DNA of 38,430 nt from an uncultured Geobacteraceae bacterium (GTDB lineage: Bacteria > Desulfobacterota > Desulfuromonadia > Geobacterales > Pseudopelobacteraceae). Below are positions 1-11,400 of this stretch, piece by piece. Position 1 is the stretch's first letter, and each line of letters begins with the position of its first letter. The stretch is from the NCBI GenBank assembly GCA_903876875.1, contig CAIRBT010000189.1, forward strand, positions 1 through 38,430, read 5' to 3'. The notes under the pieces are model-generated. The model was given only the letters and a program-made list of their open reading frames with translations, did no database searches and had not been told where the DNA came from. A program made the position numbers and the translations under genes.

Positions 1-113
1 AAACCTTCGCCTGCGATTGCGGAGAAATGGCAGAATACATCCTCGCCACCTTCCTGCTCAAGAAATCCAAAACCCTTGCTGTCGTTAAACCATTTTACTG
101 TTCCGTTTACCAT
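1..113 (-). CDS. Cold-shock protein (CspA family), 3' part cut off by the window edge
   Basis: The ATG is read on the minus strand from 113, with a good AGGAGA ribosome site seven bases upstream. The visible 37 residues begin [17 protein letters not shown] and continue with a second motif, DVFCHFSAI. These are RNP1-like and RNP2-like motifs of the nucleic-acid-binding cold-shock domain. Family members are about 65-70 residues, so roughly half the protein lies outside the window. They bind single-stranded RNA or DNA in the cytoplasm and act as RNA chaperones. The family is certain; whether this copy is cold-induced or constitutive cannot be told from the sequence. Confidence 0.95.
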
Positions 114-148
114 GTGCTTACTTCTCCTGATTCTTCTTAATTATTTTA

Positions 149-468: not shown

Positions 469-1371
469 CTAGAACTCTTTCCGCCGCAGTATCTCCCCGG
501 CCTGCTCCAACGAATCTGCCGCACCCTCCACCCAGTTAATAAGGATGCCATGCCGCTCCATGCGCCGAAACCAGTTGCCCTGACGCTTGGCAAAATCACC
601 AATCGCACTGTTAAGCCGCACAAACAGCTCCGTGCGCGTGAGCTCTCCCCGAAGAAAAGCACCCACATACCGGTATTCGAGGCCGTAGTAGTCCAGCCGT
701 TCCCAGGGGACTCCGGCAGTGTGGAGAGCCGCCACCTCCTCTATCATGCCGTTTGCCAGCCGTTCTTCCAGCCGAAGGGCAATGCGACGGCGCAACTCAT
801 GCCTCTCCCAATGGATACCGATCACCGTGCCCTCGATACGGGGAAACGGCTCCACCTCCGCTGCGTGCGCTGTCCCCCGTGCAATCTCAATGGCCCTGAC
901 CGTTCGCTGCCGATCATGCAGATCCGTACTGTTATGGAGTTCCGGCTTAAGCTGCCGGAGTATCTGCACCAGTTCTTCGTCACTTCTATCAGCCAGTTCT
1001 CCCCGGAGTGCTTCGTCGACCGGAACCTCAACCAACCGGTATCCCCGCAGTACCGCATCCAGATACATGCCGCTACCACCACAGAGAATCGGCACCGCAC
1101 CACGGGCTGTGATGTCGAAAAAAGCCTCAAAAAACAGTCGCTGAAAGGCAAAGACATTAAACTCTTCCCCCGCATTCCGAATGTCTATGAGATGGTACGG
1201 TACCGCACCATACTCATGGAGATCCTTGCCGCTGCCGATGTCCATCCCCCGAAAAACCTGGCGGGAATCAGCGGAGATAATCTCCCCGCCATATTCGGCG
1301 GCTAACGCCACCGCCAAACGGGTTTTGCCAGAGGCGGTGGGGCCGAGAATCGTTATCAGCTTATTCTTCAT
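469..1371 (-). CDS. miaA: tRNA dimethylallyltransferase
   Basis: The product transfers a dimethylallyl group to A37 of tRNAs that read UNN codons, which improves codon-anticodon stability. The 300-residue length is typical. A P-loop GPTASGKT is at residues 10-17, followed by SADSRQVF (33-40) and then MDIGSGK, a canonical MiaA N-terminus. The open frame extends upstream to 1524, but family alignment places the start at the ATG at 1371 (MKNKLITILG). That ATG overlaps the end of uvrC by 11 bases, so translation is probably coupled. Immediately downstream lie toxin-antitoxin remnants. Identification is secure. Confidence 0.97.
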   Translation of the reverse strand: MKNKLITILGPTASGKTRLAVALAAEYGGEIISADSRQVFRGMDIGSGKDLHEYGAVPYHLIDIRNAGEEFNVFAFQRLFFEAFFDITARGAVPILCGGSGMYLDAVLRGYRLVEVPVDEALRGELADRSDEELVQILRQLKPELHNSTDLHDRQRTVRAIEIARGTAHAAEVEPFPRIEGTVIGIHWERHELRRRIALRLEERLANGMIEEVAALHTAGVPWERLDYYGLEYRYVGAFLRGELTRTELFVRLNSAIGDFAKRQGNWFRRMERHGILINWVEGAADSLEQAGEILRRKEF

Positions 1372-3193
1372 GAAGACTCCGATAGAGGTTTTCTGCCACA
1401 GGACGAACCATGCCGGGAATGGCCATAAGTTCTTCCACGGAGGCCTCCCCAAGACGTTGCACACTGCCGAACTGCGTGAGCAGGGCGATCCGGCGGCGGG
1501 AGCCGATACCGGGAACAGCATCAATTACCGATGCAATCCCCTCCTTGCTCCGCAGCTTTCGATGGTATTCGATGGCAAAGCGGTGAGCTTCGTCCCGTAT
1601 CGCTGCCAATAACAGCAGGGGTGCCGAGTTCTGACGTAGCACCACCGGGTTCTTTCTCCCCGGCAGAAACACTCTTTCATCACTCTTACCCACACGACTC
1701 CCCTCGGCATCGGGGGTTACCCTGCTTTTGGCCAAAGAGACCAGATCAAAGCGGCCGGCCAGTTCCAGTTCCAGCAAAATCCCCTGCACCGCGTTTAATT
1801 GCCCCACGCCACCGTCTACCACCACCAGGTCAGGCACCCCCTCTTTTTCGATGGTATCAGCCCGGAACCGTCGTGAAAACAGTTCCCGAAGCATGGCAAA
1901 ATCGTCCTGTCCCACCACGGTGCGAATACGGTAGTGTCGATAGCGGGGGCGATCCTTGCTCCCACCGGTAAATACCGCCCGACTGCCAACGGAAAAACGC
2001 CCCTGAATGGTTGAGATGTCATAACACTCAATCCGTTGCGGCAGGCGGGACAGCTGTAAACGCCGGGACAACTCAAGCAGCACCCCTTCCGCAGAGGCGC
2101 GTTTTTCATCCCGCTCACGGCAGGCTGACTGCGCGTTTTTGCAGGCCAGTGCCACCAGTTCCCGCTTGGTGCCCCTCTGGGGCGACGAGATAGTTACCCG
2201 TCCCCCCCGTACTTCGCCGAGCAACTCGGCCAGCGGCTTACTCTCCTCGATCTCAAGTGGCAGCAGTATCTCTTCCGGAATGTACGCATCATCCAGGTAG
2301 TGCCGCTGTAAAAATTCTGCCACGGCTGTCTCATCGTCCAACTCCCAGGTAACCGGGATCAGACGACTCCCGGAGAGCACACCGGCACGAATAAAGAGCA
2401 GAGCCAGCTCGATCCTGTTGCCATCCCGGTAAAAGCCGACCACATCGATATCCCCCTCTGCCAATACCATCTTCTGCTTCTCAACGGTCACCTCAACCGA
2501 ACGGAGGAGATTACGCCAACGAGCCGCCTCTTCATAGAGCATCTGCTCCGAGGCTTCAAGCATACGGCGTTTGAACTCGGCAACCAACAGCTTCCCCTTC
2601 CCCTCTAGAAAAAGCATGGCTCCGCTGACCAGTGCCCTGTAATCTTCGGTGGTTATCAAGCCATGACAGGGGGCACTGCATTGGCCGATCTGATGATAGA
2701 GGCAGGGGCGACTACGCGCCATGCAGGTTGCCAGCGGGTAATGACGAAGGGGAAACATCCTGACCATTTGCCGCAGCACTTCGCGGGCAGCGGAACCGGA
2801 CGCATAGGGGCCGAAATAGTGGGAGCCATCCCGGGGGCGTTTGCGCACTACGGTAAAACGGGGAAATTTTTCAGTGGCATTAACCCGCAGGGAAAAATAG
2901 GTCTTGTCATCTTTGAGGCTTAAATTGTAACGGGGGTGATGCTGCTTAATCAGGGTATTCTCAAGGAGCAGTGCCTCTTTCTCCGTATCGGTCAGAGTAA
3001 CTTCGATATCCCGCACCTTTGCCATGAGAAATTTCACATGGTAACGGGAATCTCCCGACGAGCGGAAGTAGGAACGAACCCGCTGCCGCAGGTTACGGGC
3101 TTTACCGACGTAGATAATCACCCCGGCTTCATCATGCATCAGGTAGACACCGGGTGAGGTGGGGAAATGTTGTATCTTTTCTTCAAGGGTCAT
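1361..3193 (-). CDS. uvrC: Excinuclease ABC subunit C
   Basis: UvrC makes the two incisions of nucleotide excision repair together with UvrB. The 610-residue protein has an N-terminal GIY-YIG nuclease domain (SPGVYLMHD at about 12-21, then IIYVGKARNLRQRV), a cysteine-containing segment (CLYHQIGQCSAPCHG, about 165-180), a UVR/UvrB-binding region, the RNase H-like nuclease core (ECYDIS and VVVDGGVGQL) and a tandem helix-hairpin-helix at the end (VPGIGSRRR, IPGMVRP). It starts at an ATG with only a weak AAGG upstream and overlaps miaA by 11 bases. This looks like an intact, full-length gene. Confidence 0.97.
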   Translation of the reverse strand: MTLEEKIQHFPTSPGVYLMHDEAGVIIYVGKARNLRQRVRSYFRSSGDSRYHVKFLMAKVRDIEVTLTDTEKEALLLENTLIKQHHPRYNLSLKDDKTYFSLRVNATEKFPRFTVVRKRPRDGSHYFGPYASGSAAREVLRQMVRMFPLRHYPLATCMARSRPCLYHQIGQCSAPCHGLITTEDYRALVSGAMLFLEGKGKLLVAEFKRRMLEASEQMLYEEAARWRNLLRSVEVTVEKQKMVLAEGDIDVVGFYRDGNRIELALLFIRAGVLSGSRLIPVTWELDDETAVAEFLQRHYLDDAYIPEEILLPLEIEESKPLAELLGEVRGGRVTISSPQRGTKRELVALACKNAQSACRERDEKRASAEGVLLELSRRLQLSRLPQRIECYDISTIQGRFSVGSRAVFTGGSKDRPRYRHYRIRTVVGQDDFAMLRELFSRRFRADTIEKEGVPDLVVVDGGVGQLNAVQGILLELELAGRFDLVSLAKSRVTPDAEGSRVGKSDERVFLPGRKNPVVLRQNSAPLLLLAAIRDEAHRFAIEYHRKLRSKEGIASVIDAVPGIGSRRRIALLTQFGSVQRLGEASVEELMAIPGMVRPVAENLYRSLHEE

Positions 3194-3425: not shown

Positions 3426-4646
3426 ATGGAAACCATGTCAACGGTGACAGGGCTCAAAAGTAGTGCCGATGTTCTTTTTCTTATGTTGGGCGCAGCAATG
3501 GTCTTCGCGATGCATGCCGGTTTTGCCTTTCTTGAGGTCGGTTCGGTCCGCAAAAAAAACCAGGTAAATGCACTGGTCAAAATTCTCACCGACTGGGCCG
3601 TCTCAACGGTTGTCTATTTTCTGGTCGGCTTTCCCATCTCCTATGGCATCTCATTTCTAAAACCGGCTGAAGAACTGCTGGGCAAAACCCAGGGGTACGA
3701 TCTGGTACATTATTTCTTCCTCCTCTGTTTTGCGGCCTGTATTCCGGCCATCATCTCCGGCGGCATTGCAGAGCGCGCCAAGTTTTGGCCCCAGGTCATC
3801 GCCGGAGCTATCTTTGCCGGCCTTGCCTATCCACTCTTTGAGTCCCTGATCTGGGGACAGTTTTCGTCCAGCGTACAGGCACTCTTTAAATCACTGGGGG
3901 GGGCTGAATTCCACGACTACGCAGGTTCGGTAGTGGTTCACTCCATCGGTGGCTGGATCGCCCTGCCGGCCGTTATCATCCTCGGCCCCCGCATAGGACG
4001 TTTTGTAAAGGGCAAATCACACCCCATTTTGGTCAGTAATATCCCGTTTCTCGGTCTTGGCTCATGGATTCTGGCGGTCGGCTGGTTTGGCTTTAACGTG
4101 ATGAGTGCCGGAAATCTGGAAAAGATATCCGGGTTGGTGGCGGTCAACTCCCTGATGGCCATGGTCGGAGGCATTCTGGTGGCCCTTGTGGCCGGCAAAA
4201 ACGACCCCGGCTTCATTCATAACGGCGCGTTGGCCGGACTGATTGCCGTCTGTGCCGGCAGCGACATCATGCACCCCCTCGGAGCCCTTGTGGTCGGCGG
4301 CGTAGCTTCCCTCATTTTTGTCTACGGCTTCCACTATGAACAGGAGGTGCTGAAGATTGATGACGTGCTTGGCGTCTGGCCGCTCCATGGCATTATCGGC
4401 ACCTGGGGGGGCATCGCTGCCGGGATTTTTGGCCAAAAATTTTGCGGCGGTATTGGCGGAGTTACCTTCCTCTCTCAGGTGGGGGGCAGTCTCTTCGCAG
4501 TTATTTTTGCTCTGGTAAGCAGTGTCATCGTCTATGGTCTTCTTAACAAGACCGTCGGTATTCGCCTTGATCAGGAGCAGGAGTATAACGGCGCAGATAT
4601 CTCCATCCATAATATCGGAGCGTACCCGGAAGACAGCATCCGCTAA
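3426..4646 (+). CDS. amtB: Ammonium transporter (Amt family)
   Basis: This is a 406-residue, 11-helix inner-membrane ammonium channel. Family landmarks are GFAFLEVG (32-39) in helix 1, SGGIAERAKF (111-120), the first pore histidine at H172 (VVHSIGG) and the second at H321 (WPLHGIIGTWGG). No cleavable signal peptide is evident, as in the shorter Amt proteins. The ATG at 3426 follows a GGGGG ribosome-site core. A sigma-54 promoter sits just upstream, so expression is probably nitrogen-controlled. No glnB/glnK PII gene adjoins it in this window, unlike the common arrangement; the regulator must be encoded elsewhere. A stem-loop follows at 4696. Confidence 0.96.
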   Translation: METMSTVTGLKSSADVLFLMLGAAMVFAMHAGFAFLEVGSVRKKNQVNALVKILTDWAVSTVVYFLVGFPISYGISFLKPAEELLGKTQGYDLVHYFFLLCFAACIPAIISGGIAERAKFWPQVIAGAIFAGLAYPLFESLIWGQFSSSVQALFKSLGGAEFHDYAGSVVVHSIGGWIALPAVIILGPRIGRFVKGKSHPILVSNIPFLGLGSWILAVGWFGFNVMSAGNLEKISGLVAVNSLMAMVGGILVALVAGKNDPGFIHNGALAGLIAVCAGSDIMHPLGALVVGGVASLIFVYGFHYEQEVLKIDDVLGVWPLHGIIGTWGGIAAGIFGQKFCGGIGGVTFLSQVGGSLFAVIFALVSSVIVYGLLNKTVGIRLDQEQEYNGADISIHNIGAYPEDSIR

Positions 4647-4695
4647 CCGGTAGCACCAATAATAATACGGCGGCAGGCTTATCCGCCCCCACACA

Positions 4696-4732
4696 GGAGG
4701 GCTCCACCAGTACAATTTTGGCGGAGCCCTCC
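4696..4732 (+). terminator. Stem-loop downstream of amtB
   Basis: GGAGGGCTCCACC (4696-4708) and GGCGGAGCCCTCC (4720-4732) pair with a single mismatch around an 11-base loop. It lies 50 bases after the amtB stop. No U-run follows, so it may be a weak or factor-assisted terminator or a 3' mRNA-stabilising hairpin. Confidence 0.55.
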
Positions 4733-4797
4733 CCGTTTACGGCCTGAAAACCCCGTGATATAACCGTTTCTAACCTACTGACTTTCCGTTTCTTTCG

Positions 4798-4826
4798 TTG
4801 ACAATACTGCCGAGAGGTGCTACTTA
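4798..4826 (+). promoter_or_regulatory. Candidate promoter of the envelope gene cluster
   Basis: TTGACA at 4798-4803 is a perfect -35 box. At 17 bases spacing the -10 position holds TACTTA (4821-4826), which is poor. It is the only recognisable promoter-like signal in the 243-base gap before the gene at 4890. Confidence 0.3.
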
Positions 4827-4889
4827 AGATGCATTTTACCTGTAGTCACCGACTGCTCCCACTGGGCTGTCAGGAGCATCGTCGGCTCA

Positions 4890-7826
4890 ATGAGGTTATT
4901 TCACGTGAAATTATTGAAATTATGCAGAACCACCTTTACCCGTATGTTACTCATACTGGTCATAATTTCATCTTTGCATGCTACCCAGGCATTTTCTCAG
5001 GAAACTGAGGATTCACAGGTATTTATAGCCGGCTTCAACGCCTATCAGCAAAAAGATTACGGTTCCTCCATAGAAAAACTCACCGAAGTGTTACGAAAAC
5101 ACCCCAATACACCACTGCGGGACATGACGCTGTTCTGGCTGGCACGTTCCTATTATAAAATCGGTAATCAGCAAGAGGCTGCCCGCAATCTTTCGCGTTT
5201 TTCCCGTGATTATCCGGACAATCCCCTCAAAAGCACGGTTGAAGATGAACTGCTCACCCTGACCGCCCGTTTTGAAAGAGGTGAAACACTCCCGGTCGGT
5301 GCCCCCCCCGTCAAACAGTTAGGGCAGTCATCCGTCCAGATTGTGAAAGCCGAAAAAGAGCGCATTGCCGTAGCGCGTGGCGAAGAGGCCCGGCAGGCAG
5401 CAGTTGTTGCAGAGACCGCACGCACAGCAGCCCAAAAGCAGACCGAAGAAAATGCGGACGCTGAAAAGCGCGAGCAGGCGGCCGCTCAAAAGACAGCAGA
5501 CAACCGCAAAGCGACACTGGCAGCAGCCGAAGCAGAAGCGGCACGCCTGAAGACCTTGCGCCTGACCGAAGAGAGAGCAGCCTCTGAGAAAATGGCACAG
5601 GAGCAGATCCTCCTGACCAAGGCGACACAGGAAAAGGCCGAGCGGGAAAAAACGCCACCTGCCACTATCGCCGAACCGGCCGCCACGGAACAAACAGCCG
5701 GTGAAACCGGTGCGGTTATGGCAGCGGCAGCAGCAGAATCAGCACAACTCAGCGCAGTGAAACAGGCCGAAGAGCAACAAACCCGGATGAAGGCCGAACA
5801 GGAAAAAATCGCCGCACAGAAGGCCGCCGAGCAGCGTGAATTGGCGCAACGGGCAGCCGCAAAGGCGGCCGGGGAAAAAGCCGCAGAACAGGCACAGGCC
5901 AAGGCCGAGTTTGAGCGAAGGGAAGCTGTTGAAAGGGCCATCGCCACCCTCCGTGCCGAGGCTGAGATGGAAGCATCCCGCATTGCCACCCAAAAAGCGG
6001 AACGCGAAAGAATCATCCAGGTAAAAATCAAAGAAGCCCGTCAGGCCGCAGCGGCTGCTGAAACAGCTCGTCTGGCAGCGCTCAAAGCGGAAGCGGATCG
6101 GCTGGCCGCCGAGCAGGCTGCCAACGAAGAGAAAGCCCGACGGCTCGTGACTCAAAAAGCCGAGGAAGCACGCCTTGAACAGCAGAAGCTGCAAGATGAG
6201 CGTACCAAGGCCGCAAAACGTGCCTATCGGGAAAAAGCCATTGCCCAGTACAAGGCAATTCTCGATACCTACCCGAAATCTGCCGCCGCCATCACGTCGG
6301 CCGCGAAGCTTCGTGAATTGGGTATCGCAGTTGCGCTCCCTCCGGCGGCAAGTGAACCGGCTCAATCCGACACTACCCAGGTCCTAAAACTGGAAGTCGC
6401 CCAGTTTGCCGGTTTTGAATTTAATCTGCCCACGCCCCCTCCTGCGTTCAACGTGGGTGTACCGGCCACCATCCCCTTTGAAGTCGTCAACCGCGGCAAC
6501 GGTGCCGACTCCTTTGATCTCTTTTCGACTTTTCCGGCCAGTTACCGGCCCCGCTTTGCCTCGGCAGCAGCACCGGAGAAAAATATCGACCGTACCCCTA
6601 CCCTGGAACCGGCAGAAACCTTCCGGGGTGTGATAGAGTTCGTCATCCCGCCGAACAGCATCGACGGCCTGCGTATTGCCCAGGCCGTGAAAATCGCCTC
6701 ACGGTTAATGGGAGAAGCAAGTCAGTCCCACGAGATTCAGCTGGTTGCCTCAGCTCCCCTCCTGCGTGCCATAGTCAGGGCTGAAAACAGCACCTACCTC
6801 CCGGGTGGCAAGGTTGCCTACCGGGTATCCCTGCTCAACGTCGGCTCAACCACGGCACGTGACGTTTCTGTCAGAGTACGCTACCCCTCCGGCCTGGAAC
6901 CGTCGGCCACGGGCAACGGCTTTAAAAAAGAGTCATCCACATCGGTTGCTCTGGATGATGTTGTTATCAGCTCAGGAGAAAGCAGGGAGTTTACCGTTCC
7001 CTTCCAGTTGAAAGAAGGCGCCCTGGCCGGTGAGGATTTGACCGCCCGTGTGGAACTTTTCAACAAAACCCTTGGCACCAGTGCGGTCTTTGTGTCCAAC
7101 AGCCCAACAGTTGCCATACAACGAGGGGTAGTGATCCGTTCTGCAACAGCCCCCGTTATTACCATACCGGGTCAAACCATTGCCGTTCCCCTGACGGTTG
7201 TCAATACCGGTAACATCCGTGAGAAGTTTACCATTTCCTCCAAGCTTGCCGGTGGTGAATCACTGGTTGTGTACCACGACCTGAACCGGGACGGCATCAG
7301 GCAAGCCAGCGAAAAGCCGGTCAAAGAACTTGGCCCCCTGGCTCCTGGTGAAGAAGCGAGTCTGGTCGCCGAGGTAAAAACAGCCACCACCGTATCCGAC
7401 GGCAGCAAAGGGACTGTCCAGGTTTCGATTTCTTCAGCCGAAGACAGCAGCAGTTCGGCAACCGGAACCGCCCAATTAATTTATTCGAGGCCGGTTCTGA
7501 AACTGGCAACCAGTAGCCATAGCGGACAGCTGAAGCCGGGTGACATAACCTCCTTTGATCTCACCATCACCAATAACGGCTCAAACCTTGCCAGAGTTGT
7601 TGTCCTGCAAAGCATCTGGCCGGAACTCCTTGAGTTAGTGGCATCTGAGCCGACAACCAGTTCTGTGGCACAAGGCACGGTTACCTGGCGCTTTACCGAG
7701 CTTGGTGCAGGTGAACGACGCAACATCAGGGTCTCCTTCAGAGTCAAACCGGGAACCGGTGTCGGCAAGGCTATTCAGGTCAGAAACAGCCTGACCTATG
7801 AAGATCAGTTGGGAAACAGGTATTAA
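4890..7826 (+). CDS. Large exported protein: TPR, long Ala/Glu coiled coil, four beta-sandwich repeats
   Basis: I do not recognise a named family for the whole 978-residue protein. An N-terminal signal peptide (hydrophobic 18-30, cleavage near AFSQE at 34-38) indicates export. Residues 45-125 form TPR repeats (FNAYQQKDYGSSIEKL, FWLARSYYKIGNQQEA). About 150-450 is an Ala/Glu/Lys/Arg-rich coiled coil resembling TolA, ending in another TPR-like helix pair (about 445-480). Residues 500-978 hold about four immunoglobulin-like NEW3/DUF11-type units with motifs such as VVNRGNGADSF, LLNVGSTTARDV, VVNTGNIREKF and ITNNGSNLARV. The third unit contains a 12-residue EF-hand-like loop (D797-x-N-x-D-G to E808), a possible calcium site. 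The next gene starts two bases after the stop codon and also has LysM/TPR features, so they probably act together in the periplasm or at the outer membrane. The SD-like CAGGAG is rather far (13 bases) from the ATG. Confidence 0.8.
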   Translation: MRLFHVKLLKLCRTTFTRMLLILVIISSLHATQAFSQETEDSQVFIAGFNAYQQKDYGSSIEKLTEVLRKHPNTPLRDMTLFWLARSYYKIGNQQEAARNLSRFSRDYPDNPLKSTVEDELLTLTARFERGETLPVGAPPVKQLGQSSVQIVKAEKERIAVARGEEARQAAVVAETARTAAQKQTEENADAEKREQAAAQKTADNRKATLAAAEAEAARLKTLRLTEERAASEKMAQEQILLTKATQEKAEREKTPPATIAEPAATEQTAGETGAVMAAAAAESAQLSAVKQAEEQQTRMKAEQEKIAAQKAAEQRELAQRAAAKAAGEKAAEQAQAKAEFERREAVERAIATLRAEAEMEASRIATQKAERERIIQVKIKEARQAAAAAETARLAALKAEADRLAAEQAANEEKARRLVTQKAEEARLEQQKLQDERTKAAKRAYREKAIAQYKAILDTYPKSAAAITSAAKLRELGIAVALPPAASEPAQSDTTQVLKLEVAQFAGFEFNLPTPPPAFNVGVPATIPFEVVNRGNGADSFDLFSTFPASYRPRFASAAAPEKNIDRTPTLEPAETFRGVIEFVIPPNSIDGLRIAQAVKIASRLMGEASQSHEIQLVASAPLLRAIVRAENSTYLPGGKVAYRVSLLNVGSTTARDVSVRVRYPSGLEPSATGNGFKKESSTSVALDDVVISSGESREFTVPFQLKEGALAGEDLTARVELFNKTLGTSAVFVSNSPTVAIQRGVVIRSATAPVITIPGQTIAVPLTVVNTGNIREKFTISSKLAGGESLVVYHDLNRDGIRQASEKPVKELGPLAPGEEASLVAEVKTATTVSDGSKGTVQVSISSAEDSSSSATGTAQLIYSRPVLKLATSSHSGQLKPGDITSFDLTITNNGSNLARVVVLQSIWPELLELVASEPTTSSVAQGTVTWRFTELGAGERRNIRVSFRVKPGTGVGKAIQVRNSLTYEDQLGNRY

Positions 7827-7827
7827 T

Positions 7828-8604
7828 ATGATATCACGTTACAGTCAGACAATACTCCTTTCACTCATATGCTCTGCCGCCCTGCCGGTCTGGGGGCAAA
7901 ATTACCTCTACACTCCCCAACCTGCACCGACCGGACAACATACCGCTTCGGGAGACAGTATTCTGGTGCAGGAGATCGAAGTAAAAAAAGGCGATTCCCT
8001 CTATAACCTGTCACGTAAATACAGTGGCCATGGCATGTATTACCCCCAGATTTTGTTGTTCAACAAGCTCAAAAAGCCGCAACTGATTCACCCCGGCGAT
8101 ATCATCAGAATACCGGTCGGACAGAAAGATGTAGCCGGAGAAAACGGGGGAGACGACACATCGCGTACGGTTCCGGCGCCAAAAAAATCCGTGGCGCCAT
8201 CGGCGGGCAAACCGGGCACAGCTGCCACGGCACTCCCCTCCGCACTCCCTTCCGACCTGAACCTCCACGAATTGAAGGCGGTTGGCGTACATACGACGGG
8301 TGGCGACCAGAAAAAGAAAAAGCCCGCTGCCGCCAGAAAAGCCACTCCTGCTGAAAGAGGAGTAGAACAGCACACGACACAGACCTCCTCGCTTCATGGT
8401 GCCAAAGGTGGTACCACGGCACTTTCACCGGTTGCTACCGGTCAAAAGAACTTTGAAGAAGCGGTGAAGGCCTATCGTCGTGATGACTGCCGCACCGCCA
8501 TCGACCTGCTGGACCGCTATCTGGCAAGTAACTCCGATTCACCATTGGCGGCAGATGCCACCCTCTATAGGGCTGACTGTTACCTGAAACTTTCCTCACC
8601 GTAA
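7828..8604 (+). CDS. Exported LysM domain protein with C-terminal TPR-like tail
   Basis: The ATG at 7828, just after the previous stop, is preferred. It gives a signal peptide (ISRYSQTILLSLICSAALP, then VWGQ) and has an ACAGG upstream; an in-frame ATG at 7798 would overlap the preceding gene. Of 258 residues, about 48-98 are a LysM domain (VKKGDSLYNLSRKYSG, then PGDIIRIPVG), which binds N-acetylglucosamine-containing polymers such as peptidoglycan. A low-complexity Ala/Pro/Lys linker follows. The last 55 residues form a single TPR/YbgF-like helix pair (EEAVKAYRRDDCRTAIDLL). The protein ends abruptly after YLKLSSP in the second helix, so a natural truncation or old frameshift is possible. The predicted role is an envelope factor tied to peptidoglycan. 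Confidence 0.82.
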   Translation: MISRYSQTILLSLICSAALPVWGQNYLYTPQPAPTGQHTASGDSILVQEIEVKKGDSLYNLSRKYSGHGMYYPQILLFNKLKKPQLIHPGDIIRIPVGQKDVAGENGGDDTSRTVPAPKKSVAPSAGKPGTAATALPSALPSDLNLHELKAVGVHTTGGDQKKKKPAAARKATPAERGVEQHTTQTSSLHGAKGGTTALSPVATGQKNFEEAVKAYRRDDCRTAIDLLDRYLASNSDSPLAADATLYRADCYLKLSSP

Positions 8605-8662
8605 GTTCCGTGCCCATGCCGATTATGTCATTTCCGTTCCATCACCGTGAGGTAGCCACGCC

Positions 8663-9112
8663 ATGAACATTACGCCACTCGATATTCAGCAACAGCAATT
8701 CAAGGTTAAAACATTCCGTGGCCTTGACCCCGACGATGTGGATGCTTTTTTACAAATTGTGGCAGGCGAATTGGAAGGTTTGCTGCGCGATAATAGTCAA
8801 CTCAAGGAACAACAGGTTCGGCAGAACCGTGAGATGCTTGATCTGGCCGAGAAGGAGCGGGAATTACGCGATATGCTGCTCTCGGCTCAGCGGGTGATAG
8901 AAGAACTGAAGTCCAACGCCCGCAAGGAGGCAGAATTGATCGTCTCCGAAGCAGAACTCAAGGGTGAGCGTATTATAGCCGATGCGGAACGGCAATTGGG
9001 CGAGCTTAAATCACGCATTGAAGAGATGCGTCGCGCGAAAATCCAGTTCGAAATGGGTTTTAAAGGCATGCTCGATAGTTTCAGCAAACAACTCGGCAAT
9101 GAGCAGTTCTGA
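8663..9112 (+). CDS. DivIVA domain protein
   Basis: The 149-residue protein begins with the diagnostic DivIVA/GpsB N-terminal segment: ITPLDIQQQQFKVKTFRGLDPDDVDAF appears at residues 3-29, in two helical halves. A long heptad coiled coil follows to the end, with an RKEAELIVSEAELKGERII stretch typical of DivIVA. Such proteins oligomerise at curved membrane (poles, septa) and recruit division or wall-synthesis partners. The ATG at 8663 has GAGG ten bases upstream. The stop overlaps the next gene by 14 bases. Co-occurrence with a DUF167 gene is common in delta-proteobacteria and other bacteria. Here the upstream neighbours are LysM/TPR envelope genes instead of proC or yggT. Confidence 0.9.
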   Translation: MNITPLDIQQQQFKVKTFRGLDPDDVDAFLQIVAGELEGLLRDNSQLKEQQVRQNREMLDLAEKERELRDMLLSAQRVIEELKSNARKEAELIVSEAELKGERIIADAERQLGELKSRIEEMRRAKIQFEMGFKGMLDSFSKQLGNEQF

Positions 9113-9437
9113 GTCGCTTCGCTGGGTGACCTTCTGTGATGATGGTCTTCTGCTCAACGTTTACATTCAGCCCCGTGCCTCAAAAAATCAGCTCTGTGGC
9201 ATTCAGGGCGATGCATTAAAAATACGGCTTACCTCCCCACCGGTTGATGGTGCTGCCAATAAACTCTGTCGTGAGTTTGTTGCCGAACTGTTCAAAACAT
9301 CAAAATCATCGGTGATTATCCTGTCCGGTGAGACTTCGCGTCATAAACGTTTAAAAATAGTGGGTAGTAACGGAGAGTTGCTACGCTCGCAGCTTAGTAC
9401 ATTATTAGAGACCCTGAACATCGGGCATACACACTGA
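9099..9437 (+). CDS. DUF167 (YggU-family) protein
   Basis: The 112-residue product carries the DUF167 signature: VYIQPRASKNQLCGI near residues 21-35, LKIRLTSPPVDGAANKLC at about 39-56, and SSVIILSGETSRHKRLKI further on. This is a small conserved alpha/beta fold of unknown biochemical role. The ATG at 9099 lies inside the end of the divIVA-like gene, so translation is probably coupled. The family is certain and the function unknown. Confidence 0.9.
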   Translation: MSSSESLRWVTFCDDGLLLNVYIQPRASKNQLCGIQGDALKIRLTSPPVDGAANKLCREFVAELFKTSKSSVIILSGETSRHKRLKIVGSNGELLRSQLSTLLETLNIGHTH

Positions 9438-9452
9438 AAGGATACAATTCAC

Positions 9453-9962
9453 ATGGCACAGGCAAAATCAGGGGATAAAGTTACGGTTCACTACACCGGC
9501 ACCCTCGCAGACGGCTCCATCTTCGACAGCTCAGAAGTACAACCAGAGGAGGCGTCACACAGCTGCTCAAGCACAAAAGAGCATTCCGGCAGTTGTGGCT
9601 GCGCTTCAAATGACTGCGCATCCGAACCGTTGGAGTTTGTCATTGGCGGCGGTCAGCTCATTCCAAAGTTTGAAGCGGCGGTCATCGGCCTGGAACCGGG
9701 GCAGAGCGTTACGGTGACAATTGCGGCCGATGATGCCTACGGCCAGCATGCCGAAGAGATGGTGGCCGTCATCGAGCGGAGTGAAATACCGGCTGAAATC
9801 AATCCTGAGCCGGGTCACCAGATGGAGGTCATCCTTGAGGATGGCTCACCGCTGCCGGTGCTGGTCACCGCCGTCACCGATACTACCATTACCCTCGATG
9901 GCAACCACCCGCTGGCCGGACAGGATCTGACCTTTACGATCCGGCTTGTCGAAATACGATAA
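9453..9962 (+). CDS. SlyD-like FKBP peptidyl-prolyl isomerase with Cys/His insert
   Basis: The 169-residue cytoplasmic proline isomerase/chaperone follows the SlyD plan. An FKBP half-domain (VTVHYTGTLADGSIFDSS, 10-27) leads to PLEFVIGGGQLIPKFEAAV, then an insert-in-flap chaperone domain (about 79-139), and ends with the typical NHPLAGQDLTF (151-161). Its oddity is an extra segment at about 29-58, between the two FKBP strands. It is rich in Cys and His (H36, C38, H44, C48, C50, C55) where most homologues pass directly from FDSS to PLEF. SlyD of E. coli binds nickel through a C-terminal His/Cys tail. Here that tail is missing and the insert may serve instead. The ATG follows a GAAAGGA ribosome site. 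Confidence 0.92.
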   Translation: MAQAKSGDKVTVHYTGTLADGSIFDSSEVQPEEASHSCSSTKEHSGSCGCASNDCASEPLEFVIGGGQLIPKFEAAVIGLEPGQSVTVTIAADDAYGQHAEEMVAVIERSEIPAEINPEPGHQMEVILEDGSPLPVLVTAVTDTTITLDGNHPLAGQDLTFTIRLVEIR

Positions 9963-9988
9963 GTTAAGCTGTATACTATTTTCAACAG

Positions 9989-10015
9989 AGGGGCGAGCCG
10001 GTTGGCTTCGCCCCT
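9989..10015 (+). terminator. Terminator of the envelope/FKBP cluster
   Basis: AGGGGCGAGCC (9989-9999) pairs with GGCTTCGCCCCT (10004-10015), with one bulged base and a four-base loop. It is followed by TTGTATTTTGT, a broken U-run. It sits 27 bases after the FKBP stop. It could also receive transcripts from the converging minus-strand operon. Confidence 0.65.
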
Positions 10016-10164
10016 TTGTATTTTGTGCTATCAGGGACTTGGAACTTACTGATATACCATTTTTCATCTCATCTTCAGGCCACCTTTTCCGTCCCTCCAA
10101 TCGTAAAAACCTCAGCGTAGCCACACTCGAAATCGAAATCAACCTCTGTAACGGCTCCCTGCCC

Positions 10165-11400
10165 CTACTTGCCGGTGGCCACCGTCGAACCGGCAGATTG
10201 TACGGAGAACTCCTTGGCATCGGCGGGAACCGCAGCCAGTACCACGACAAACCGTATGGCCTTACCGGGGGGAACCCCCATATTTGCCAGTGAATCACCA
10301 AACTGGTTGGCCATTGCTGCCTCAATTTTATCTAAGGGAAGGCTTTGCAGCTGCTCTGCCGTCAAGGGATTACCACAGTAGGCCATTTTACCAACCACAC
10401 TCTGACCGGCACCCCCAAATACGGTGGCTTTGACCTGCAAGGCGGCACGGGCCCGTGAGTATTCATTCACCGCCTCTCCCGAAATCACCAGTAACTCACC
10501 TGCCACACTGTTTTTTACAAAAGCTGCCGTAACGCCACGAACGCTTATCTTGCCAACCTCAACAGCCGGAACTTCTTTTTGTGCATAGAATGTCGTATAG
10601 CCGAAATAGCCGGCCACCAACAGTACGACTACGGCAATGGTGGCCAGGAGTATGCCAAAGAGTGAACTCTGTTTGCGCCGTGTGGCTATCACCGGCGAAG
10701 GCAACTCCGCATCCCCTCCCGGCGAAAAGGCACCGGCCGGTGACAGGTTCACCTCACCAGCCACTGCTGGCGCAACAATCGGTTCCGAAACAGCCGGAGG
10801 CGGTTCCGTGAATACCGGCGGGGCAACGGGTGGTATCGCAATCTCCTCTGTCTGTCCCCAAACGGTCTCGGGAGGCGGAGCAGTGAAGGCACCTTCCTTC
10901 TCGTCTGGTAAATTAAACAGGAATGGCGCGGGATCCTGAGGGGGGATGGCTTCCCGCTCCCATTCCGAGAAGTCTACGGAGTTGGTTTCGGAGTCGGTAC
11001 CTACAGCGGAGGACGTTACCCGGTGGAACGGATCGGTGGACTGCTCTTCCACGGGAAGCTGCTCACTGCCAAACACAAAATCGGAGAAATCAAAGCCGCC
11101 ATCTGCCGATGACGGTGGCACAGTATCCTGCAAAAACGGCGCTGCAACGGCAGTCGGCTCCGCAGCCCCTGCCGGGACGTCACAGTGCTGCTCGACCGAG
11201 GGTGCCGTCTCCGCGATACCCGCACGGATAAGCGGCGGAACAAAGCCGGCTCTGACAATTTCTGGCCGTTCCTCCGGCATATCCTTCTTTACGGTGAAGA
11301 CATATTTGCACTTTGTGCAGCGTACCCTGACCCCTTTTTCGGTGACCCGTGAGTCGTCAAGCCGAAATTTGGTCTGGCACTTTTCGCATTGGATTACCAT
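10165..11400 (-). CDS. MJ0042 zinc-ribbon / DUF3426 membrane protein
   Basis: The chosen ATG at 11400 has an excellent GAGGAG seven bases upstream and puts the zinc ribbon at the very N-terminus, although the frame opens 14 codons earlier. The zinc knuckles are C5-x2-C8 and C28-x2-C31 (the MJ0042 pattern, with RVRCTKCKYVF). Then comes a long, Pro/Ala-rich acidic linker (about 40-245), one transmembrane helix (about 246-270, LFGILLATIAVVVLLVAGYF) and a DUF3426 domain carrying RGVTAAFVKNSVAGELLVISG and the late PPGKAIRFVVVLA. The layout gives a cytoplasmic metal-binding head and a periplasmic beta domain. These proteins are common in Desulfuromonadales and their function is not established. It is the last gene of the long minus-strand run. 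Confidence 0.88.
   Translation of the reverse strand: MVIQCEKCQTKFRLDDSRVTEKGVRVRCTKCKYVFTVKKDMPEERPEIVRAGFVPPLIRAGIAETAPSVEQHCDVPAGAAEPTAVAAPFLQDTVPPSSADGGFDFSDFVFGSEQLPVEEQSTDPFHRVTSSAVGTDSETNSVDFSEWEREAIPPQDPAPFLFNLPDEKEGAFTAPPPETVWGQTEEIAIPPVAPPVFTEPPPAVSEPIVAPAVAGEVNLSPAGAFSPGGDAELPSPVIATRRKQSSLFGILLATIAVVVLLVAGYFGYTTFYAQKEVPAVEVGKISVRGVTAAFVKNSVAGELLVISGEAVNEYSRARAALQVKATVFGGAGQSVVGKMAYCGNPLTAEQLQSLPLDKIEAAMANQFGDSLANMGVPPGKAIRFVVVLAAVPADAKEFSVQSAGSTVATGK

Follow-up and report, generated by a model that had tools for sequence, protein, structure and literature searches.

Bacteria of the Geobacter type pass electrons, and build filaments, across an envelope that is in part undescribed. 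The locus considered here raises the question of whether four consecutive genes of an uncultured Geobacteraceae bacterium (order Geobacterales) encode a single envelope system. The window, i.e., the whole stretch of DNA that was analyzed, comprises 38,430 nucleotides of contig CAIRBT010000189.1 (assembly GCA_903876875.1). An initial annotation described a 978-residue exported protein (here termed BIG) followed by a LysM-TPR protein (encoded by lysM), a DivIVA-like protein, and a DUF167 protein, and proposed that together they form a polar or septal complex. Open frames and Pfam matches confirm that all four genes are real and occur in this order. Our results indicate that BIG and LysM very probably constitute one unit to which DivIVA does not belong. 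The unit comprises the following features:

4890..7826, + strand: BIG, 978 residues, an exported-looking protein with a TPR domain, a long charged helix, and four immunoglobulin (Ig; DUF11)-like domains
4995..5309, + strand: N-terminal TPR domain of BIG (residues 36-140), which belongs to a common TPR type resembling CpoB and BamD
5325..6224, + strand: long Ala/Glu/Lys/Arg-rich helix of BIG (about residues 146-445; 82 to 768 residues across 31 sequences)
6402..7823, + strand: four Ig-like domains of BIG (about residues 505-978)
7828..8604, + strand: lysM, 258 residues, with a signal-like N-terminus and a LysM domain joined by a variable linker to a C-terminal TPR hairpin

The distribution of BIG was evaluated by screening 395 genomes of the phylum with a profile of its last 539 residues (E ≤ 1e-20, with up to three candidates scored per genome). 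Homologs were identified in eight genomes, all within the window's order: eight of the nine Geobacterales genomes, none of the eight from other orders of the class, and none of the remaining 378. Within the genomes sampled, BIG is restricted to the order. We then screened 127 genomes of the order (E ≤ 1e-70 for BIG, 1e-25 for lysM, and 1e-20 for DivIVA) and identified BIG in 100 of them. Bearers of BIG include members of Oryzomonas, Trichlorobacter, Pelotalea, Geomonas, Geotalea, and Geobacter. Of the 100 genomes, 92 have a match to the lysM profile no more than 1.5 kilobases (kb) from BIG, and none of the 27 genomes lacking BIG matched the lysM profile at its threshold. The eight genomes that encode BIG without an adjacent lysM comprise seven with no lysM match at E ≤ 1e-25 (four from one genus, g4, and G500 with BIG at a contig edge) and G516, where lysM is on a different contig from BIG and BIG is a partial match. 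The tight pairing suggested in the initial annotation is borne out by these frequencies, and no paper titled on the pair was among the literature matches listed (open-licence PubMed Central articles). BIG-lysM is a real two-gene envelope module that is apparently new to description. Present in about 100 of 127 genomes of the order and unseen in the rest of the phylum sample, the pair is a candidate for an order-specific envelope function.

The two genes are closely packed. The spacing of two bases given initially is better placed at one, with lysM starting at 7828, one base past the BIG stop, and 30 of the 31 pairs examined (all but L089) have a start codon for lysM −1 to +2 bases from the BIG stop. 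BIG and lysM are probably translationally coupled. A scan of positions 4600-10200 identified no forward-strand promoter-like site between the upstream amtB gene and divIVA and no forward-strand terminator-like site anywhere in the interval; in total, promoter-like sites were near shuffle level (4 versus 3.0 in shuffled sequence) and terminator-like sites were above it (12 versus 7.3, standard deviation 2.6). The LysM domain of the lysM product scored 39.5 bits (Pfam cut-off 20.9), and TPR_16 scored 24.8 bits, under its cut-off of 32.7. By hhalign, the C-terminal hairpin of LysM, in which a Cys is invariant across 31 sequences, is similar to the first TPR of BIG (82%, E = 1.1e-5), but both are of a common TPR type that CpoB and BamD share.

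The architecture of BIG is conserved in 31 aligned sequences, the window's among them, and is not a product of chance. DUF11 (PF01345) scored 66.3 bits against a cut-off of 24.6, was matched by all 31 aligned members at E ≤ 0.001, and was strongest on the fourth Ig domain of the window's BIG; it is a label at the level of fold rather than of function. TPR_6 likewise exceeded its cut-off (31.2 versus 26.3 bits), whereas NPCBM_assoc/NEW3, the other family to which the beta domains had been likened, fell slightly short (23.2 versus 24.4 bits). Structure prediction, which had been recommended as a check, was carried out with AlphaFold2 on 28 sequences (predicted template modeling score 0.42). The TPR domain (residues 40-129) was modeled with a predicted local distance difference test (pLDDT) score above 90 in most 10-residue blocks, and the four Ig-like domains (about residues 505-621, 625-735, 745-865, and 870-978) with pLDDT mostly about 90; the long helices (148-253, 278-421, and 425-460) were of low to middling confidence. 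The TPR and four beta domains of the initial description stand, and its TolA-like coiled coil is unproven: the helix, rich in Ala/Glu/Lys/Arg/Gln, shows no 3.5- or 7-residue peak indicative of heptads, and its Glu-to-Lys i+4 pairs are at shuffle level (9 versus 9.6). A heptad coiled coil was set aside in favor of a long Ala/Glu-rich helix. BIG has no match to a TolA family in Pfam or NCBIfam, its C-terminus being modeled as Ig.

Two further observations concern this protein. The helix varies ninefold in length between species (82-768 residues), with good conservation at both ends. A D-x-N-R-D-G-x-x-x-x-x-E loop in the third Ig domain (window 7278-7313; BIG residues 797-808) is kept in at least 90% of aligned sequences and resembles a calcium-binding loop.

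Comparisons with known structures place BIG among common folds. A single-sequence search of the PDB with BIG returned just a weak YbgF match (0.57), and its C-terminal profile had no PDB match at E ≤ 0.01. The Ig array aligned with generic Ig arrays (Foldseek, VIA-align), such as integrin alpha (8xfo; Z 13.7, root-mean-square deviation [rmsd] 6.8 over 215 residues), and with pilins, antigen I/II, and the biofilm protein RbmA; these matches are uninformative on function. FimV, TolA, and GspB were not among the structural matches listed, which proves nothing.

Export was judged by eye and by hydropathy (mark of 1.6). The sole segment of BIG above this mark is the hydrophobic stretch at its N-terminus, and no lipid-anchor motif was seen by eye. 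DivIVA has no hydrophobic stretch, and hydropathy revealed no membrane-crossing part beyond the N-termini in the products of BIG, lysM, or divIVA. We infer that BIG and LysM are exported and that DivIVA is cytoplasmic. With no further membrane segment, neither exported protein would therefore be expected to reach DivIVA without another protein.

How, then, did divIVA come to lie behind the pair? The genes that bear on this question are as follows:

8663..9112, + strand: divIVA (PF05103), a neighbor via lineage-specific insertion, not counted in the pair
9099..9437, + strand: yggU (DUF167), which also follows divIVA in 7 of 11 fetched loci that have divIVA away from BIG
3426..4646, + strand: amtB, ammonium transporter, within the inserted block
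1361..3193, − strand: uvrC, within the inserted block and a common divergent neighbor of BIG
469..1371, − strand: miaA, at the far end of the inserted block, with yggT just beyond it in relatives

The divIVA product scored 132.9 bits for PF05103 (cut-off 28) and the DUF167 protein 84.8 bits (cut-off 30.9). Judged by eye, position 9099, which overlaps the divIVA stop, makes a better yggU start than 8982. The identities of amtB, uvrC, miaA, and yggT were likewise confirmed by Pfam; galT, znrib, duf2400, and hk in our neighbor tables are working labels only.

DivIVA is encoded in 125 of the 127 genomes of the order, in one copy each, and it is near BIG in the window's genus alone. There, 22 of 31 genomes that encode BIG have divIVA no more than 6 kb from it, and divIVA adjoins lysM in a 23rd (G516); elsewhere in the order it is that close in none of 69. 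Among these 69, BIG and divIVA are on one contig in 15 genomes, at distances of 104 kb to 2.35 megabases, and on different contigs in 53, where contig breaks may conceal adjacency; one genome has no DivIVA match. The pair is thus routinely far from divIVA, which the initial annotation had named as the outcome that would count against its proposal, and the neighborhood survey that it had called for upheld the pairing of BIG with lysM but not the membership of DivIVA or DUF167.

The position of yggT suggests how the adjacency arose. Of the 11 fetched loci with divIVA away from BIG, 10 have a yggT match on the same strand as the divIVA match and 13-45 bases from it. Within the genus, divIVA was fetched in seven of the eight remaining genomes (G513 was left out) and directly follows yggT in six (L100, L195-L198, and L212). 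The seventh (L208, in G507), which is also the eleventh of the loci above, retains yggT-miaA-uvrC-amtB-divIVA and carries BIG-lysM on another contig (L209), a case in nature of the pair being separate from its block. Conversely, in all 17 divIVA-linked loci that could be evaluated (those with at least 900 bases beyond miaA, from 10 genomes), yggT lies on the same strand as divIVA, 419-566 bases past miaA and 7.9-9.4 kb away from divIVA, with miaA-uvrC-amtB-BIG-lysM in between. Eight more divIVA-linked stretches, the window included, stop within 500 bases past miaA, and others are without miaA. Counting against this account, L124, L127, and L138 have neither miaA nor yggT in the 8.7-9 kb before BIG; their upstream part is rearranged and does not reveal an insertion. 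The window's own genome has yggT at one end of contig C31, and that end is identical to the first 141 bases of the window. This overlap, a sign from the assembly graph that falls short of proof, suggests that yggT is probably just upstream of miaA. The overlapping end also holds what looks by eye like a fragment of a cold-shock-like gene (window 1-117, − strand), at the contig edge.

These arrangements fit an insertion of miaA-uvrC-amtB-BIG-lysM between yggT and divIVA in the window's clade, and the adjacency of divIVA to BIG-lysM is secondary. On the basis of the survey of 127 genomes and of the split between yggT and divIVA, we reject DivIVA as a partner. The apparent three-gene system of the window exists because a gene block was inserted into the divIVA operon, which illustrates the trap of defining a system from one genome.

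What, then, might the pair do? Overall, we propose that it is a Geobacterales-specific, peptidoglycan-anchored periplasmic scaffold, perhaps serving a PilB-like envelope machine, a reading of inferred function to which we assign a probability of roughly 0.55. We consider it rather probable that the pair is a periplasmic scaffold bound to the wall. In this scheme, the two-gene module would build the scaffold on the cell wall, with LysM predicted to bind peptidoglycan on the basis of its LysM domain (39.5 bits) and to hold BIG through the TPR parts of both proteins. The length of the BIG helix, which spans 82 to 768 residues depending on species, would set the reach of the scaffold, and the four Ig domains could offer a binding face to another envelope part, perhaps the products of the neighboring genes pREC or lysM2. 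The likeliest client would be an inner-membrane assembly of these two products, whose genes elsewhere occur ahead of a gene for a PilB/GspE-type ATPase with MshE-type (cyclic di-GMP-binding) N-terminal motifs.

The recurrent identified neighbors of BIG-lysM are uvrC, amtB, pREC, and lysM2. The common order is a divergent uvrC, often amtB, then BIG, lysM, a convergent pREC, and in many genomes lysM2. Outside the window's family, pREC and lysM2 are recurrent neighbors of BIG, with lysM2 within 10 kb of it in at least 29 of 43 BIG genomes; open frames of the pREC family were detected in 34 of 80 stretches compared. pREC encodes a weakly receiver-like N-terminus, one hydrophobic segment (in the copy of the window's genome), and a conserved C-terminal domain. 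Of 21 aligned copies of the lysM2 product, 14 carry a LysM domain recognized by Pfam; the protein also has alpha/beta domains. Elsewhere, pREC-lysM2 sit ahead of a PilB/GspE-like ATPase gene (pilB'), as on contig C130 of the window's genome, beside rimP and nusA. The pilB' product carries an MshEN domain and is of the T2SSE family (398.9 bits for L207, cut-off 24.9), and the copies of L207 and L171 scored 549 and 565 bits for type_IV_pilB, below the cut-off of 675.65. BIG-lysM-pREC-lysM2-pilB' are collinear on one strand in G495 and G497, and the order is the same in G444, where lysM was not detected. In G474, G489, and G493, fetched sister genomes without BIG, pREC-lysM2-pilB' alone are kept. 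Since pREC-lysM2 precede a PilB/GspE-type ATPase, BIG-LysM may support a pilus- or secretion-like machine. Such a link is the main appeal of the pair, and we put it forward tentatively, as possible but with the odds against it. In a bolder version, which appears unlikely, BIG-LysM would be anchored to the wall as the periplasmic half of a trans-envelope machine that is specific to Geobacterales and undescribed, with pREC, lysM2, and a cyclic di-GMP-responsive PilB-like ATPase as the inner half and the BIG helix as a spacer for reach.

Several observations weigh against the scaffold and its proposed client. Support for export comes from inspection by eye and hydropathy, and the N-terminus of LysM, signal-like by eye, is under the hydropathy mark. 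DUF11 domains are common on secreted or surface proteins too. Response_reg scored 17.7 bits in one scanned pREC copy, below the cut-off of 30.2, and was not matched in the remaining scanned copies; the two pREC copies of the window's genome matched no Pfam family, and its lysM2 product had no Pfam LysM match. In that genome, pREC and lysM2 are on other contigs than the window, and the five-gene collinear order is limited to one genus. Across the order, lysM2 is absent from 13 of the 100 genomes with BIG and present in 13 of the 27 without it (Fisher p = 5e-5, a value that overstates the evidence for co-occurrence, given that the genomes are related). pREC and lysM2 are not obligate partners of BIG.

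In a phylogenetic tree of pREC, copies beside BIG cluster weakly (81/75), though not all of them do, L157 being placed elsewhere. The tree failed to identify the paralog of the five-gene cluster, the L171 copy forming a long, unplaced branch. In the model of the lysM2 product of the window's genome (L207:8746-10290, contig C130), a degenerate LysM region is followed by two alpha/beta domains. The second resembles folds of the Vsr and restriction-endonuclease-like kind (3r3p; Z 10.9, with an rmsd of 2.3 over 85 residues), a nuclease-like fold that is odd for a protein with a signal-like N-terminus; Foldseek gave no match for lysM2 at E ≤ 0.001 (best 0.021).

Among other explanations, the pair might assist cell-wall synthesis or the constriction of the outer membrane in the manner of CpoB and TolA, as a helper particular to this lineage. 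The TPR part would then touch a cell-wall synthase or Tol-Pal, with the helix reaching across the periplasm and LysM marking the wall. TolA has a long Ala-rich helix, as does BIG, and TPRs of the YbgF/CpoB/BamD type are present in both BIG and LysM. The combination of TPR and long helix recalls CpoB and TolA, and the role described for CpoB supports the comparison (PMC4458516). The TPR profile of BIG matches CpoB (4.7e-8) and YbgF (1.9e-6), but designed TPR proteins score best and the matches are generic. Similarly, LysM orthologs match NCBIfam YbgF in 23 of 31 cases at E ≤ 0.01 (best 6.2e-9), BamD in 15, and CpoB in two, but the window's LysM reaches 15.7 bits against the YbgF equivalog cut-off of 90.1 and BIG has no YbgF match at E ≤ 1. 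Unlike CpoB or TolA, BIG has four Ig domains added, and no Tol-Pal gene was recognized beside the pair, where many neighboring open frames are without annotation. We consider this explanation improbable.

It is also unlikely that BIG is a secreted or surface protein whose Ig domains function in adhesion or within an outer layer, with LysM retaining it at the wall during export. The DUF11 score, the pilins, antigen I/II, and RbmA among the closest folds (as generic Ig arrays), and the want of a lipid-anchor motif or second membrane helix are consistent with such a protein. However, no sorting or outer-membrane export domain exceeded its cut-off in Pfam or NCBIfam, the NCBIfam choice-of-anchor T match covering 45 residues and reaching 33.1 bits (cut-off 70), and an N-terminal TPR, a long helix, and a LysM partner would be more usual of periplasmic parts. 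Finally, a single polar or septal complex of BIG, LysM, and DivIVA, all of which could bear on the envelope and whose genes adjoin in the window, in 22 of 31 genomes of the genus, and in G516, is very improbable given the 0 of 69 genomes outside the genus, the yggT-divIVA pair that the block splits, the separate contigs of G507, and the lack of a membrane-spanning part linking DivIVA to the exported-looking proteins.

The scaffold that we favor recalls several known systems in principle and fails the membership features examined. FimV/HubP polar landmark proteins unite LysM, Ig-like, and TPR parts in one envelope system (PMC12918733). BIG-LysM combine the same parts, yet divide them over two exported-looking proteins. 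A transmembrane region of the FimV/HubP type was not detected, the N-terminal segment of BIG alone passing the hydropathy mark and none in LysM, and the C-terminal TPR domain of FimV was likewise not detected, no FimV model being among the NCBIfam matches of the window's BIG and LysM or of the 31 LysM members. GspB/OutB is a type 2 secretion scaffold that ties the machine to peptidoglycan and has an inner-membrane attachment and a periplasmic HR domain (PMC9239104). The idea of a peptidoglycan-tied scaffold for a secretion machine is shared, whereas an HR (T2SSB) domain and inner-membrane anchor were not detected in BIG or LysM by Pfam, NCBIfam, or hydropathy. The LysM profile matches the LysM part of TsaP from type IV pili (3jc8, 4.5e-8) and also many other LysM proteins, but the match to TsaP is confined to LysM (about 43 residues).

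Relatives of both genes occur outside the pair. A shorter BIG relative of 436 residues, with TPR and Ig regions, is encoded in the window's genome (L095:7556-8866, contig C9), where it overlaps the end of an rpoD gene (sigma-70 by Pfam), and akin open frames of about 416-481 residues are present in many relatives. Additional LysM-TPR paralogs were identified at L100:6705-7283, near fkbp in the divIVA cluster, and at L101:5808-6695, near genes that look flagellar by eye; this second paralog carries a charged insert ahead of LysM.

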